This document shows positions 17,825-24,526 of a stretch of DNA of 64,000 bases, one piece after another; the stretch's first letter is position 1; the number at the start of each line of letters is the position of its first letter. Origin of the DNA: Tepidibacillus decaturensis (lineage in GTDB: Bacteria; Bacillota; Bacilli; Tepidibacillales; Tepidibacillaceae); contig NZ_LSKU01000001.1 of NCBI RefSeq assembly GCF_001561915.1, positions 529,548 to 593,547 on the forward strand. The letters run 5' to 3'. The position numbers and the translations under genes were made by a program. Below the pieces are notes generated by a model that had not been told where the DNA came from, ran no database searches, and worked only from the letters and a program-made list of their open reading frames with translations.

Positions 17825-18805
17825 ATGATTGATTATCCTGTAATAGATGATGTTCTAAAAAACTATAATCTACAAGTAGAGGAAATAGAAGAATACTCCT
17901 CCTTCTATAAATTAAAAACAAACCGAGGAACAAAAATATTAAGAGCTTGGAATGATGTAGAAACTCTAGATTTTGCCTTTCAATTTAGAGAATCTCTGGC
18001 GCATGAAGGGTTTCGAAAGATTGATCGCTTTATTCGAACCAATGATGGGCAACCCTATATTTTAAATGAGGATCAGGGATTTGTTTTAACAGATTGGATC
18101 GAAGGAAAAATCCCTGTCTCCTCTAACCCACAACACATGAAAACGATTGGGAAAACATTAGCAGAGTTTCATCAGGCGATGGTAAAAATAAAGACAAACC
18201 AAACGTTTGAACCTTGGTCTCATCATTTTAAACGGGGATTAGGACATTTAATGCAAATAGAAAAGGTAGTCTCACAAAAGCAAAGAAAAACACCCTTAGA
18301 TGATATTGTATTAAAATATATCCCTAGTCAACAAGCACAAATGAGAAGAAGTATAGAAATGTCTGAAAAGTTGGAACGAAATTATTTTCGAAATGAAAAA
18401 GAACCCGGATGGTGCTTAGGAAATGTCCAACTGAACCGATTTAGAATCGATCGATTTGAAGAGGGATGGATTTTTGATCTAGGGTTACCAATCTATGATC
18501 TTCCAGCTTATGACTTGGCTAAGATGGTTGCACATGTTTATCAAAGAAATGGATTTCAAGAAGATATCATCTATAAGCTGCTCGATGCTTACCAAGAAAA
18601 GAATCCTTTAGAAATAGACGATAAAAAGTGGATTTTAACCTACTTGTCCTATCCGCATGATCTATGGAAATTTCTTTATATCTATTTTATTGCAAAGGTG
18701 CCTCAAAAGGGATACTCTTTAGAGATGCAATATCAACAATTAGTAGGGTTGCAGATCAATACTGAGCAACTTTATCAGGTCTTGTATGTTTATTTTCAAC
18801 TTTAA
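17825..18805 (+). CDS. ysxE: Spore coat kinase-like protein YsxE (CotS family)
   Basis: A 326-residue CotS/YsxE-type protein with the aminoglycoside-phosphotransferase-like fold. N-terminal SSFYKLKTNRGTKILRAWN is the degenerate nucleotide-binding lobe. The catalytic loop is lost: where active members have an HGD/HRD and a DFD, this one reads GWCLGNVQLNRF and WIFDLGLPIYD. It is therefore probably a pseudokinase with a structural coat role. It lies 18 nt after spoVID, as ysxE does in B. subtilis, so it is presumably expressed in the mother cell with it. Confidence 0.85.
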   Translation: MIDYPVIDDVLKNYNLQVEEIEEYSSFYKLKTNRGTKILRAWNDVETLDFAFQFRESLAHEGFRKIDRFIRTNDGQPYILNEDQGFVLTDWIEGKIPVSSNPQHMKTIGKTLAEFHQAMVKIKTNQTFEPWSHHFKRGLGHLMQIEKVVSQKQRKTPLDDIVLKYIPSQQAQMRRSIEMSEKLERNYFRNEKEPGWCLGNVQLNRFRIDRFEEGWIFDLGLPIYDLPAYDLAKMVAHVYQRNGFQEDIIYKLLDAYQEKNPLEIDDKKWILTYLSYPHDLWKFLYIYFIAKVPQKGYSLEMQYQQLVGLQINTEQLYQVLYVYFQL

Positions 18806-18832
18806 GTTGACGTAATTAGGGAGGATCATATC

Positions 18833-19837
18833 ATGGCCCTTACCCAAGAATGGTTTGAATTTGATATACATCCCCACGTAATCGATGAGTATGATTTTCA
18901 GGTAAGTCAGATAAAATGGTATGGTTCAGTAGCGAAAATAGAAACCCAACTAGGTGTTTTTGCCGTTAAAAAAGCAAATATGAGTGGGTCGCAAGCCATA
19001 CGGATGAATGAGATTTTACAATTCTTACAGGAACATAGATGGAATACTTCTACAATTGTTTCTAATAAATTTGCTGAACCGTTTGTACCAGTCAAAAATG
19101 GGATTGTTTATGTGACAAAGTGGGTTGAAGGTGAACACTTAACTTTGAATCATCGGCCTCATTTCTTGGTCATGGTAAAGGTGATGGCTCATCTTCATAA
19201 GCTGGGGTTTGAATATAACCCCGAACCATTTTCTTATCATTTTGTTGATGAAACGTATCTTCGCAATTCATGGGAAGAACGCTTAAAGTGGTTAAAAAAA
19301 TACCAAAAGAAATTAACGAGAAAAGAATCTTTAACCACCTTTGAACATGTCATTTTAAGTTATCTACCATTTCTCAAGGAATGGTCTGAAGAAGCTTTAG
19401 AACATTTAACTCAATGGGTCATACAATATAACTCGATTGGTGATTTACGGAAAACCATCTGCCACGGCAAATTCTATCACCGGAATATGCTACTTAAACC
19501 AAATGGTAAAATGGTATTGATTGACTTTGACCATGTAAGTCTTGATACGCCTGTTAGAGATTTGGCTAATTTTATCCGAAAATATATTTTAAACAAAGAA
19601 CACCGTTTTTGGGCGCAAGAGTGGTTTGATCGCTATCAAAAAATTATTTCCTTGACAGAACCGGAAAAGAAATTATTAGCAATATACCTTCTTTTTCCAG
19701 AACGAATTTTCACCTTAGCAAAAAAATACGAGGAAAAGCAACAGTATGGATTAGAAGAACAGTATTTAAAAAAACTTCAAATTCGTTGGGGTCAAATGAA
19801 AGAAATCATATGGTTTATTGACCAACAATTTATATAA
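18833..19837 (+). CDS. CotS family spore coat kinase-like protein
   Basis: A 334-residue paralogue of the preceding gene. It keeps more of the kinase-like core: CHGKFYHRNMLL for the catalytic loop and MVLIDFDHVSLDTPVRDLANFI for the metal-binding DFD motif. The N-terminal lobe reads WYGSVAKIETQLGVFAVKKAN. GGGAGG precedes the ATG and the gene starts 27 nt after ysxE, so the three sporulation genes form one unit. Members of this family (CotS, CotI, YutH) are coat proteins. Enzymatic activity of this one is possible but unproven. Confidence 0.85.
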   Translation: MALTQEWFEFDIHPHVIDEYDFQVSQIKWYGSVAKIETQLGVFAVKKANMSGSQAIRMNEILQFLQEHRWNTSTIVSNKFAEPFVPVKNGIVYVTKWVEGEHLTLNHRPHFLVMVKVMAHLHKLGFEYNPEPFSYHFVDETYLRNSWEERLKWLKKYQKKLTRKESLTTFEHVILSYLPFLKEWSEEALEHLTQWVIQYNSIGDLRKTICHGKFYHRNMLLKPNGKMVLIDFDHVSLDTPVRDLANFIRKYILNKEHRFWAQEWFDRYQKIISLTEPEKKLLAIYLLFPERIFTLAKKYEEKQQYGLEEQYLKKLQIRWGQMKEIIWFIDQQFI

Positions 19838-20128: not shown

Positions 20129-20162
20129 TTATATTGATATGCGATATAAATATCAATATAAT
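20129..20162 (+). promoter_or_regulatory. Promoter of the acetyltransferase leader, covered by a 12-bp perfect inverted repeat
   Basis: TTGATA (20134-20139), 17-nt spacer, TATAAT (20157-20162). A perfect 12-bp inverted repeat TTATATTGATAT (20129-20140) / ATATCAATATAA (20150-20161) with a 9-nt spacer covers both promoter boxes. It therefore resembles an operator as well as a promoter. Transcription should start near 20169, right before the riboswitch-like element. No regulator gene is adjacent. Confidence 0.6.
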
Positions 20163-20165
20163 AAT

Positions 20166-20315
20166 TTCTAACAATGGAAGGGAAACTAGGGTTCCGTTTG
20201 CAAAGGCAAAGACAGGTCCGAGCGATTCCAAGCTTTTTGCTACACCGTGGGGATAAAAGACTCGTGCGGTAAGTTCCAATGGCGAACTTATCAGGAACGA
20301 GTCTTTTTTGTTTTA
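20166..20315 (+). ncRNA. ykkC-class riboswitch-like leader with terminator
   Basis: Conserved ykkC elements occur in order: AAACTAGGGTTCCG (20183-20196), a TTTGC/GCAAA hairpin, ACAGGTCCGAG (20212-20222), a variable hairpin, then ACACC (20242-20246) and GTGGGGATAAAAG (20247-20259). The usual GCCCGGGAGA that follows GGGATAAAAG is not seen; ACTCGTGCGG stands there instead. The terminator stem AAAAGACTCGT (20255-20265) / ACGAGTCTTTT (20297-20307), with inner GGTAAGTTC/GAACTTATC, shares bases with the GGGATAAAAG core, so ligand binding would compete with termination (an ON switch). ykkC classes bind guanidine, ppGpp, PRPP or nucleoside diphosphates; the class here is uncertain. Confidence 0.65.
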
Positions 20316-20354
20316 CCATGATAAAGAATTAAATCAAAAAGGGGGAGGGTTATG

Positions 20355-20924
20355 ATGTTAAAAGGAAAGCTGGTTCAATTAAAAGCGGTAGAAAGAGAAA
20401 ATCTATCCAAATACCTAGAATGGGTGAATGATCCAGAAGTCACCCAATATTTATCACCACAAACACGTTTTCCAAAGACGCTTGCAGAGGAACATCGTTG
20501 GTACGATAACCTTTTAAAGCAGGATGATAAGTTTGTCTTTTCCATTTATACGCGAGCAGATGATCGAATGATTGGAAGTGTTGGTTTACATTCTATTAGT
20601 TGGAAAAATCAATGGGCAATCGCAGGGATTTTTATAGGAGATAAAGATTATTGGGGGAAAGGATATGGAACAGAGGCTTTTCGTTTATGTCTCTATATAG
20701 GGTTTCAAGAATTAGGATTACAGCGAGTTGAATTAGGGGTTTATGCTTTTAACGAAAGAGCGATCAAAAGCTATCAAAAGCTTGGCTTTGTTGAAGAAGG
20801 TAGAAGAAGAAGATTTTTGTACCGCAATGGTCAATTTTACGATGAAGTGATGATGTCTATTCTTCGAGAAGAGTACCTTGAACGCTACCAAAAGGAGGAT
20901 GAAGAGAGATGGAAAACCTTTTAA
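20355..20924 (+). CDS. GNAT family N-acetyltransferase (RimJ/RimL type), first of pair
   Basis: A 189-residue acetyl-CoA-dependent acetyltransferase. GSVGLHSISWKNQWAIAGIFIGDKDYWGKGYGTEAFRLCLYIGF contains the GNAT acetyl-CoA pyrophosphate loop (WGKGYGTEA). The VYAFNERAIKSYQKLGFVEEGRRRRFLYRNGQFYDEVMMSIL tail is typical of the RimL branch. ATG 20355 has GGAGG 6 nt upstream; ATG 20352 is too close to it. It begins 45 nt after the leader terminator, so it should be controlled by the ykkC-like element. The substrate is unknown. Confidence 0.88.
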   Translation: MLKGKLVQLKAVERENLSKYLEWVNDPEVTQYLSPQTRFPKTLAEEHRWYDNLLKQDDKFVFSIYTRADDRMIGSVGLHSISWKNQWAIAGIFIGDKDYWGKGYGTEAFRLCLYIGFQELGLQRVELGVYAFNERAIKSYQKLGFVEEGRRRRFLYRNGQFYDEVMMSILREEYLERYQKEDEERWKTF

Positions 20925-21466
20925 AAGGAAAGAGAGTTCAGCTTAAGACCATCGATCCAGAAAAGGCACCATTATTTAACCAATGGTTTAATGATCCTCA
21001 CATTACGGAAAATTTGCAATGGGGTACCCTTCCTATGCCAATGGAGTTATCCAAGAATTTTGGGGATCAGGCTCAACAACCCTCAAAAACAGATCAACAC
21101 TTTTCTATCCATGCACTAGATCTTCCTGAGGGAGAGGAATCCTATATCGGCCATATTAGCTTACATCATATCGATTGGCGGAATCGAGTCGCTGAATTAG
21201 GAATTGTGATAGGCGATCAGAAGCACTTAAGTAAAGGTTATGGAACTGATGCAATCAAAACGCTACTTCACTTCACTTTTATGGAAATGAACTTAAACAA
21301 AGTGATGTTACGTCATTATCAATTTAATGAAAGGGGACATCGAGCCTATCTTAAAGCCGGTTTTAAAGAAGAGGGACGCTTACGTCTGCAGCTTTACCGT
21401 CATGGTAGGTTTTGGGATGTGATCTATATGGGTATATTAAAAGAAGAGTTCATGAACAACCAATGA
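20909..21466 (+). CDS. GNAT family N-acetyltransferase (RimJ/RimL type), second of pair
   Basis: A 185-residue paralogue of the upstream gene, overlapping it by 16 nt. The order of motifs is the same: GHISLHHIDWRNRVAELGIVIGDQKHLSKGYGTDAIKTLLHFTF, then HYQFNERGHRAYLKAGFKEEGRLRLQLYRHGRFWDVIYMGIL. It carries an insertion near residues 55-75 (AQQPSKTDQHF...LPEGEES). AAAGGAGG lies 11 nt before ATG. The two may form a heterodimer or act on related substrates; that is inference from pairing only. Confidence 0.88.
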   Translation: MENLLKGKRVQLKTIDPEKAPLFNQWFNDPHITENLQWGTLPMPMELSKNFGDQAQQPSKTDQHFSIHALDLPEGEESYIGHISLHHIDWRNRVAELGIVIGDQKHLSKGYGTDAIKTLLHFTFMEMNLNKVMLRHYQFNERGHRAYLKAGFKEEGRLRLQLYRHGRFWDVIYMGILKEEFMNNQ

Positions 21467-21498: not shown

Positions 21499-21527
21499 TT
21501 GACTTTATCTTTTGTTGTGATTACAAT
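21499..21527 (+). promoter_or_regulatory. Sigma-A promoter of valS
   Basis: TTGACT (21499-21504), 17-nt spacer, TACAAT (21522-21527). Confidence 0.65.
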
Positions 21528-21534
21528 ATAGTTA

Positions 21535-21835
21535 AATATTTTGTCGGTTAACATGTAAATAGAGGAATAACCATGAAAGGGAGGAGTAAGTAACCTTACC
21601 TTCAAGAGAGGGAAACCATTAGCTGTAAGGTTTCCTAAGGCAGAAGTTACTGAAGGTCGCCCTGAAGTTGTCCATTTGAAATGATGTAGAATGGACCGGA
21701 TCATCAACCGTTACTGATTGAGTGCATGAACACACAAATAGAGCTAGGTCTAAGCTAGTTGTGTTTCATGAACAAAGGTGGCACCGCGAAAACAAACTCT
21801 TTTCGTCCTTTGGGATGGAAAGGGTTTTTTATATT
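21535..21835 (+). ncRNA. T-box leader with valine (GUC) specifier
   Basis: The T-box bulge GGTGGCACCGCG is at 21777-21788. Specifier loop: lower stem AGGG (21578-21581) / CCCT (21660-21663), S-turn AGTA (21585-21588), upper stem GTAAC (21590-21594) / GTTAC (21646-21650), and the codon GTC at 21656-21658. GTC encodes valine, as expected upstream of valS. A terminator with arms near 21796-21810 and 21814-21827, followed by TTTTTT, ends the leader. Uncharged tRNA(Val) would favour the antiterminator. Confidence 0.9.
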
Positions 21836-21865: not shown

Positions 21866-24526
21866 ATGGCTGAACAACTTGAATTACAAATCCCAACTCA
21901 ATACGATCCGAAGGATATTGAGAAAAAGTGGTATGAATATTGGTTAGAGCACGAATTTTTTAAAGCAGGCAAAGATACATCAAAACAACCCTATAGTATT
22001 GTGATTCCACCACCCAATGTGACAGGGATGTTGCATATTGGTCATGCATTGGACTTCTCTTTACAGGATATCATCATTCGGATGAAGCGAATGCAGGGAT
22101 ATGACGCTTTATGGTTACCAGGAACAGATCACGCTGGAATAGCGACGCAAGCCAAAGTAGAGGCAAAGCTTCGAGAAGAAGGGATTAGCCGCTATGATCT
22201 TGGGCGGGAAAAATTTCTTGAGCACGCATGGGAATGGAAAGAAAAGTATGCTAATCGAATTCATGAACAATGGGCCAAATTAGGACTCTCTTTAGATTAT
22301 TCTAGAGAGCGTTTTACCCTTGATGAAGGCTTATCCCAAGCAGTTCGTAAGGTTTTTGTTAGTTTTTATGAAAAAGGACTCATCTATCGTGGAAAATATA
22401 TTATTAACTGGGATCCAGAAGCAAGAACCGCTTTATCAGATATTGAAGTAGAATATAAAGAAATCATGGGTGCTTTATATCATATGAAATACCCACTGAA
22501 GGATGGAAGTGGTCATATTGTCGTTGCCACTACTCGTCCTGAAACCATGTTAGGGGATACTGCGGTTGCTGTGCATCCAAATGATGAACGTTACCAACAT
22601 TTAATCGGCAAAACGGTAGTCTTACCTATTACAGACCGTGAGGTTCCAATTATTGCAGACGAATATGTTGAAAAAGAGTTTGGAAGTGGTGCAGTAAAAA
22701 TAACACCTGCCCATGATCCGAATGACTTTGAAATTGGCTTACGTCATCAACTTCCACAGGTTTTAGTGATGGATGAATCAGGACATATGAACGAGAATGC
22801 TGGAAAATATCAAGGCATGGATCGTTTTGAATGTCGTAAACAAATTGTCAAAGATCTTCAGGAACAAGGGATTCTTTTTAAAATTGAAGAACATCTTCAT
22901 TCTGTTGGACATAGTCAACGAACAGGGGCGGTTGTTGAACCCTATTTATCTACCCAATGGTTTGTGAAGATGAAGCCTCTGGCAGAAAAAGCAATTCAAC
23001 AACAAAAAAGCGGTAATGGTGTTCACTTTGTACCAGAACGTTTTGAAAAGATCTATCTAAATTGGATTGAAAATATTCGCGACTGGTGTATTTCCAGACA
23101 ATTATGGTGGGGTCATCGTATACCTGCTTGGTACTGTGAAGATTGTGGCGAAACGATCGTCCAAATGGAAGAGCCAAAATCATGTTTAAACTGTGGCCAC
23201 ACCCATCTTAAACAAGATGAAGATGTTTTAGACACTTGGTTTAGTTCTGGTTTATGGCCATTTTCAACGATGGGTTGGCCAGAGCGAACGGAAGATTTAC
23301 AAAGATTTTATCCAACAAATGTATTGGTAACTGGATATGACATCATCTTCTTTTGGGTGGCAAGAATGATCTTCACTGCCCTAGAATTTACTGGAGAAAA
23401 TCCATTTAAAAATGTCTATATTCACGGCTTGGTTCGTGATAGTGAAGGAAGAAAAATGTCCAAATCCCTAGGAAATGGAATTGATCCAATCGAAGTGATT
23501 GATCAATATGGCGCAGATGCCCTACGTTTCATGCTGGCAACAGGGGGTACGCCTGGGCAAGACTTAAGATTCCATTTTGAAAGGGTAGAAGCTGCCCGTA
23601 ATTTTGCAAATAAAATTTGGAATGCTTCCCGTTTTACCATCATGAACTTAGGCGATTTTTCTGTAAAAGATATTGATTTATCAGGTACATTAACGACTGC
23701 GGATCAATGGATTTTACATCGTTTTAATGAAACAGTAAAAGCTGTCACAAGACTGTTAGAACAATATGAATTTGGTGAGGCTGGAAGAATGTTGACCAAC
23801 TTCATTTGGGATGAATTTTGTGACTGGTATATTGAATTAGCCAAACTTCCTTTATATGGTGACCATGAGCAAGCGAAGAAAACGACGAAATCGGTTCTTA
23901 CCTATGTCTTAGATCGTACCTTACGTTTGTTACACCCTTATATGCCATTTATTACAGAAGAGATTTGGCAACACCTTCCACATGAAGGGGAAAGTATTAC
24001 TCTAGCAAGCTGGCCAGAATATCGTGAAGAATTTGTTAATGAACAAGCAGCAAAAGAAATGGTATTATTAATGGATGTGATCCGCTCTGTTCGTAATATC
24101 CGTGCAGAAGTCAACGTGCCATTAAGCAAAAAAATTCAGCTTCTCATTAAACCAGTGAATAAAACCAATGAAGAGATTTTACTCAAAGGAATCTCATATA
24201 TTAAAAAGTTCTGTAATCCAGAAATCTTAGAAATCTCTACAGAGGTTACTTCACCTGAAAAAGCAATGTCCGCAATTGTGACAGGAGCAGAGATTTATTT
24301 GCCTTTAACTGGCTTAATTGACATTAGTCAAGAAATAAGCAGATTGGAAAAAGAATTAGAGACCCTTAATTTTGAAGTAGAACGAGTTCAAAAGAAATTA
24401 GCTAATAAAGGTTTTGTAGATAAAGCACCTGCTGACGTTATAGCCAAAGAAAAAGAAAAAGAGCAAGACTATCTTGAAAAAAGAGACAAAGTATTAGCAA
24501 GAATCAAAGAGCTAAAAATGTCATAG
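21866..24526 (+). CDS. valS: Valine--tRNA ligase
   Basis: Class I aminoacyl-tRNA synthetase of 886 residues. HIGH motif is HIGH at 57-60 in [21 protein letters not shown] is at 530-534. The editing (CP1) domain and a four-cysteine zinc knuckle ([10 protein letters not shown]...[10 protein letters not shown]) lie between them. The C-terminal coiled coil typical of ValRS ([28 protein letters not shown]) is complete. GGAGG precedes the ATG. It is controlled by the T-box upstream and followed 25 nt later by folC, as in B. subtilis. Confidence 0.98.

Follow-up and report, generated by a model that had tools for sequence, protein, structure and literature searches.

A predicted ppGpp-type ykkC riboswitch upstream of a tandem acetyltransferase gene pair in Tepidibacillus decaturensis

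A ykkC-class leader upstream of two acetyltransferase genes

The analysed stretch of the Tepidibacillus decaturensis genome (64,000 nucleotides, hereafter the window) contains a leader at 20166–20315, followed by two overlapping GNAT acetyltransferase genes and, behind a separate T-box leader, by valS (Table 1). Two APH-fold kinase genes (CotS/YsxE-like, 17825–19837) lie 5′ of the leader and the GNAT pair, and kinase, kinase, valS and folC follow one another much as in the spoVID-ysxE-valS-folC region of B. subtilis. The likely specifier of the valS T-box is GTC (Val) at 21656–21658.

The initial annotation had proposed a ykkC-class leader controlling tandem acetyltransferase genes, and both the leader and the gene pair were confirmed. 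The motifs it had quoted were read in the right order, with CTAGGGTTCCG at 20186–20196, GGTCCGAG at 20215–20222 and GGGGATAAAAG at 20249–20259. The element GCCCGGGAGA is absent, as had been noted, and from 20260 its place is taken by ACTCGTGCGGTAAGTTCCA, the 5′ arm of a predicted terminator ending in TTTTTT.

At the Rfam gathering level nothing was found at the leader, and the valS T-box was the only hit of the window. With a relaxed threshold, RF00442 (Guanidine-I; gathering cut-off 63 bits) covered 20175–20270 end to end at 44.7 bits, with an E value of 5.5e-7 for the stretch and of 1.1e-6 genome-wide, and no other match of this kind occurred in the genome of 2.96 Mb. In addition, the subtype 2a model described below recovered the leader genome-wide with an E value of 2.8e-20, the runner-up in the genome reaching just 19.9 bits. 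The leader match is well above chance, and the feature is real. The whole genome (G000) contains no ykkC element besides the GNAT leader; PRPP-type leaders before pur genes were seen in three relatives of the family.

Table 1. Features of the leader, the acetyltransferase pair and the adjoining valS locus (window coordinates)
Feature	Position	Strand	Basis or remark
Sigma-70-type promoter-like site, TTGATA-17-TATAAT	20134–20162	+	11/12 consensus bases; predicted start ~20168–20170
ykkC subtype 2a (ppGpp-type) aptamer, predicted	20171–20279	+	R1 84.8, R2 59.1, R3 66.9, RF00442 44.7 bits; unconstrained fold gives ykkC helices
P0, 5′ strand UGGAA	20175–20179	+	pairs with 20274–20278 UUCCA
P1, 5′ strand	20181–20186	+	pairs with 20224–20229, one A-A mismatch
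C20223, position 49 of PMC6031431	20223	+	A in guanidine-I, pyrimidine in ppGpp/PRPP aptamers
ACACC, in which C20243 is C75	20242–20246	+	sequence; PMC6031431
P4 hairpin CCG-U-GGGG-AUAAAAG-ACUC-GU-GCGG	20245–20269	+	U20265 is the position-96 equivalent
Intrinsic terminator and U tract, predicted	20255–20312	+	overlaps 3′ strands of P4 and P0; −23.2 kcal/mol alone
P0, 3′ strand UUCCA	20274–20278	+	folding; also within terminator 5′ arm
GNAT acetyltransferase 1 (RimJ/RimL/SpeG-like, Acetyltransf_3)	20352–20924	+	domain searches
GNAT acetyltransferase 2	20909–21466	+	overlaps end of GNAT 1; ~40% identical to GNAT 1
Promoter-like site before valS T-box, TTGACT-17-TACAAT	21499–21527	+	consensus match
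valS T-box leader, separate neighbouring switch	21564–21813	+	120.1 bits
valS, valyl-tRNA synthetase	21866–24526	+	preceded by its own T-box

Assignment of the aptamer to a subtype

ykkC-type leaders were collected from 100 relatives, and those below the Guanidine-I cut-off were examined together with their downstream genes. They were sorted into subtype 2b (pur and xanthine-permease genes), 2a (ilvB, ilvD, ilvE or gltB) and 2c (NUDIX/HAD). A 2a model (R1) was trained on 21 ilv/gltB leaders and a 2b, PRPP-type model (R2) on 15 pur-type leaders, with the window and all GNAT leaders left out of both. In the covariance-model comparison that the initial annotation had suggested, the window leader scored 84.8 bits with R1 and 59.1 bits with R2, a difference of +25.7, next to 44.7 bits with RF00442; a natA-type 2a model (R3) fitted it more poorly than R1, at 66.9 bits.

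The R1–R2 difference was calibrated on 100 loci outside the R1 and R2 training sets, taken from Bacilli and other classes of the phylum. It was above zero in 67 loci, all non-purine (ilv, leu, gltB, natA-type, livK-type, peptide or amino-acid transport and a few other genes), and −4.9 or lower in 31, all with purine, nucleobase or nucleoside genes, the borderline exceptions being two gltB loci at −1.1 and −4.1. The value of +25.7 lies beyond any purine locus and deep on the ppGpp side of a calibration that, because the 2a and 2b training labels are gene contexts rather than aptamers of known ligand, tests consistency with the published classes and not binding.

The diagnostic bases pointed in the same direction. 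By published rules, a pyrimidine at position 49 marks subtype 2, and G96 marks PRPP aptamers while a non-G marks ppGpp aptamers (PMC6031431, PMC5912903); C75 pairs with the guanine of ppGpp (PMC6031431). The leader has C49 (C20223), C75 (C20243) and U96 (U20265), all as in the ppGpp type. Subtype 2a is further indicated by the core motifs together with P1–P4, by P0 and by the best score with the 2a model, and the terminator competing with P0 and P4, the ON layout of this subtype, was found by folding alone. These features, namely the helices including P0, C49, C75, a non-G at 96 and a terminator over the 3′ strands of P0 and P4, are shared with the ppGpp riboswitches of D. hafniense ilvE and Clostridiales natA.

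The scaffold, C49, C75 and P0 are equally those of the PRPP riboswitches of subtype 2b, whose model still gave 59.1 bits, and Vulcanibacillus and two other relatives of the family carry 2b leaders before pur genes. Even so, we regard a PRPP riboswitch as very improbable here. The 2b score is 25.7 bits below that of the 2a model, U stands where PRPP aptamers conserve G96, the 5′ part reads GGAAGGG instead of the PRPP-side element GAAAGTG, and no purine gene lies downstream of the leader.

A guanidine-I riboswitch (subtype 1, RF00442), with GNATs acting on guanidine or related compounds, is scarcely credible. Its core CTAGGGTTCCG, GGTCCGAG and GATAAAAG is shared, RF00442 does match, and GNATs occur under guanidine-IV riboswitches, one of them acetylating canavanine (PMC9788692). 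However, the match stays under the 63-bit gathering score, C20223 occupies the position of A46 of guanidine-I, and the window has a conserved P0, which guanidine-I lacks. Moreover, ACTCGTGCGGT, a 2a sequence, replaces the GCCCGGG part (GCCCGGGAGA), and the guanidine-I leaders scored with R1 reach only 36–56 bits, yet such leaders in relatives exceed 80 with RF00442. The guanidine-acetylating role suggested initially is unsupported, given the C at the guanidine-I A position, the score below the RF00442 cut-off and RimJ/RimL/SpeG-like GNATs to which no substrate is assigned.

Subtype 2c fitted less well: it carries GCACCTATTGGCAYAAAA before NUDIX genes where the window has ACACCGTGGGGATAAAAG, and 2c loci scored only 35–43 bits with R1. 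The orphan subtype 2d is associated with an EamA/TauE transporter gene downstream and a near-guanidine-I consensus; on these two points the window shows a GNAT target and a low RF00442 score of 44.7 bits.

The 3′ ends were also placed side by side. The 2b group reads CCCAGGCGGGTAGGTTTC, the 2a group CCTC-TGCGGCAGGTTCTGA or ACCCGGCGGACAGGTTCC, and the window ACTCGTGCGGTAAGTTCCA; in an ilvE leader (L065), CTCGTGCGG is identical to the sequence of the window. Since the same 3′ sequence occurs in subtype 2a RNAs before ilv and natA-type genes, ppGpp is the expected ligand, and the initial proposal that an altered 3′ part signals altered specificity did not hold. What stands of that proposal is a ykkC-scaffold riboswitch, other than guanidine-I, with a terminator; what does not is the reading of the lost GCCCGGGAGA, whose absence is a mark of known ykkC subtypes, here 2a, and by itself no sign of novelty.

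A 2a-like scaffold could nevertheless have drifted to a new ligand tied to the GNAT substrate, for example some toxic aminoacyl-nucleotide or a different guanine-like compound, and so represent a further ykkC specificity class. The target gene is unfamiliar, positions 95–96 are GU, A stands in place of G at position 104, and one mutation can change the ligand of the ykkC scaffold (PMC6031431). We consider this very improbable: GU at 95–96 and A at 104 each also occur in leaders before ordinary ilv or natA-type genes, the same AAG being common in other 2a leaders, and no pocket residue is private to the GNAT leaders.

Predicted structure and mode of switching

Unconstrained folding of the aptamer segment alone formed P0, P1, P2, P3 and P4, whereas in the full leader the terminator was favoured (−40.6 vs −25.2 kcal/mol). 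A simple consensus terminator scan missed the leader terminator because its stem is bulged. In the 21 training leaders of R1, 23 of the 33 P0–P4 pairs had changed on both sides, P0 being among the covarying helices, and 93.1% of cells were paired, compared with 78.8% in shuffled and at most 46.8% in slid alignments. P0 was also kept in leader L034, in which an A-U pair has become G-U. In the folding model, the terminator overlaps the 3′ strands of both P0 and P4, which is the layout of an ON switch. The same layout is found in another ppGpp riboswitch, for which the folding has been mapped by experiment: there, ppGpp favours the closing helix over the terminator by stabilising it and thereby switches expression on (PMC10687018).

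Taken on sequence and folding, the leader is with good confidence a ykkC subtype 2a riboswitch, most likely sensing (p)ppGpp and acting as a transcriptional ON switch. Transcription would start just 5′ of the aptamer. Without ligand, the terminator would capture the 3′ halves of P4 and P0, and the RNA would end at ~20312. Under amino-acid shortage, RelA would make ppGpp, which may hold P0 and P4 together so that no terminator forms and the GNAT pair is transcribed. A RelA/SpoT gene is present in the genome and encodes a full protein (860 bits).

The switch is ordinary and its target is unusual, a GNAT pair in place of the usual amino-acid genes. ppGpp riboswitches have been reported with branched-chain amino acid, glutamate (glutamate synthase) and transport genes, the last including natA-type transporters (PMC7266159, PMC5912903, PMC10687018), and also in tandem with T-boxes (PMC9481103). 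The initial remark that GNAT genes are not standard targets is supported. The literature covered on ykkC or ppGpp riboswitches together with acetyltransferases, a scope outside which the founding 2018 ppGpp paper lies, yielded only unrelated guanidine-IV/Gd4v work on GNATs; there, too, an RNA switch precedes GNAT genes, but the scaffold of the Gd4v motif and guanidine-IV riboswitches differs from that of the window (PMC9788692). The range of genes that may be switched on by an alarmone-sensing RNA would now extend to acetyltransferases.

The acetyltransferase pair and its linkage to the leader

Both proteins are members of the RimJ/RimL/SpeG-like group, with GNAT domains and the acetyl-CoA loop GKGYGT/SKGYGT, and the two may form a heterodimer. 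Neither protein scored above the cut-off of any curated model; GNAT2 reached 26 bits with the curated RimL model (cut-off 184). A substrate was also sought by homology, and the best solved matches were aminoglycoside 6′-N-acetyltransferases and spermidine acetyltransferases; with no curated model at its cut-off, neither was adopted.

RimL and MccE of E. coli are reported to N-acetylate, and so to inactivate, a wide variety of aminoacyl adenylates (PMC3817062). They share with the window proteins the GNAT fold of the RimJ/RimL-like group and an aminoacyl-tRNA synthetase gene as neighbour, but the window GNATs lie so far below the curated RimL cut-off that the comparison is one of analogy only. 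Adjacency to valS carries little weight, since valS is served by a promoter-like site and a T-box of its own. By this analogy, a tentative working guess, possible rather than probable, is that the GNATs may N-acetylate toxic aminoacyl-nucleotides, or inhibitors resembling amino acids, and thereby inactivate them. We would further guess that induction by ppGpp, a sign of uncharged tRNA, would suit a protective role of the RimL/MccE kind. Should the GNATs protect tRNA charging or modify parts of the translation machinery, a direct acetylation arm under RNA control would be added to the stringent response.

Conservation of the leader in relatives, proposed initially as a check, was found in Vulcanibacillus modesticaldus (L097), where leader, GNAT1, GNAT2 and valS follow in the order of the window. 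The GNATs are 65% and 64% identical to those of the window, the leader scored 93.5 bits, and the terminator is kept. In P0, G-U replaces A-U, and in P4 the G.A position reads U-A; both changes preserve the structure. The kinase-kinase-valS locus was present with neither leader nor GNATs in two other genera of the family (G001, G003); in a further relative (G002), the contig begins too near valS to show their presence. The joint presence in Vulcanibacillus modesticaldus and joint absence in G001 and G003 indicate that leader and GNATs come and go together, in the manner of a single cassette.

These relatives also bear on whether the leader is a decayed riboswitch, kept as a mere terminator or by chance, as one P1 mismatch and a short P3 might suggest. 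The chance of this appears negligible, since a second genus retains leader and terminator, with changes that compensate one another, and since the GNAT pair and the leader are either both there or both missing.

The exact leader-GNAT-GNAT arrangement was found in two genomes only. Among the 80 nearest GNAT1 homologues in GTDB genomes, none but that of Vulcanibacillus had such a leader, so the linkage is not general to the family of GNAT1. Among ~69 2a-type leaders examined with their downstream gene, one other lay directly before a GNAT gene (L222). GNAT targets of 2a leaders are rare but not unique.

L222 (G127:C5:111249-111367) is a natA-type 2a leader before a different RimJ/RimL-like GNAT, 30% identical to GNAT1 over 121 residues, and the next gene resembles tryptophan 2,3-dioxygenase. 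L083 (G067:C94:17665-17784), a natA-type 2a leader, was rejected as a second case: its GNAT gene lies ~500 bases downstream, the gap holds a C-terminal ABC ATPase remnant, and the original target was probably a natA-type gene that has since decayed. At L053 (G015:C5:479732-479838), a single GNAT with 40% identity to GNAT1 directly follows a ykkC leader that contains ACACTTC and CCTGGAGGATGAGTCTCA. This leader was likewise set aside as support, its ligand class not being callable from 69.9 (2a) vs 67.4 bits (2b) and GG at 95–96; it is possibly an unusual specificity variant.

Other targets were seen as well. Four 2a leaders (L242, L253, L272 and L292) precede the gene of a conserved integral membrane protein that begins with MQLTPILALSIVLTIFAVGD and by eye looks DUF819-like; we have not seen this target named. 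A natA-type 2a leader, L224 (G138:C18:69492-69615), precedes an MFS-like transporter.
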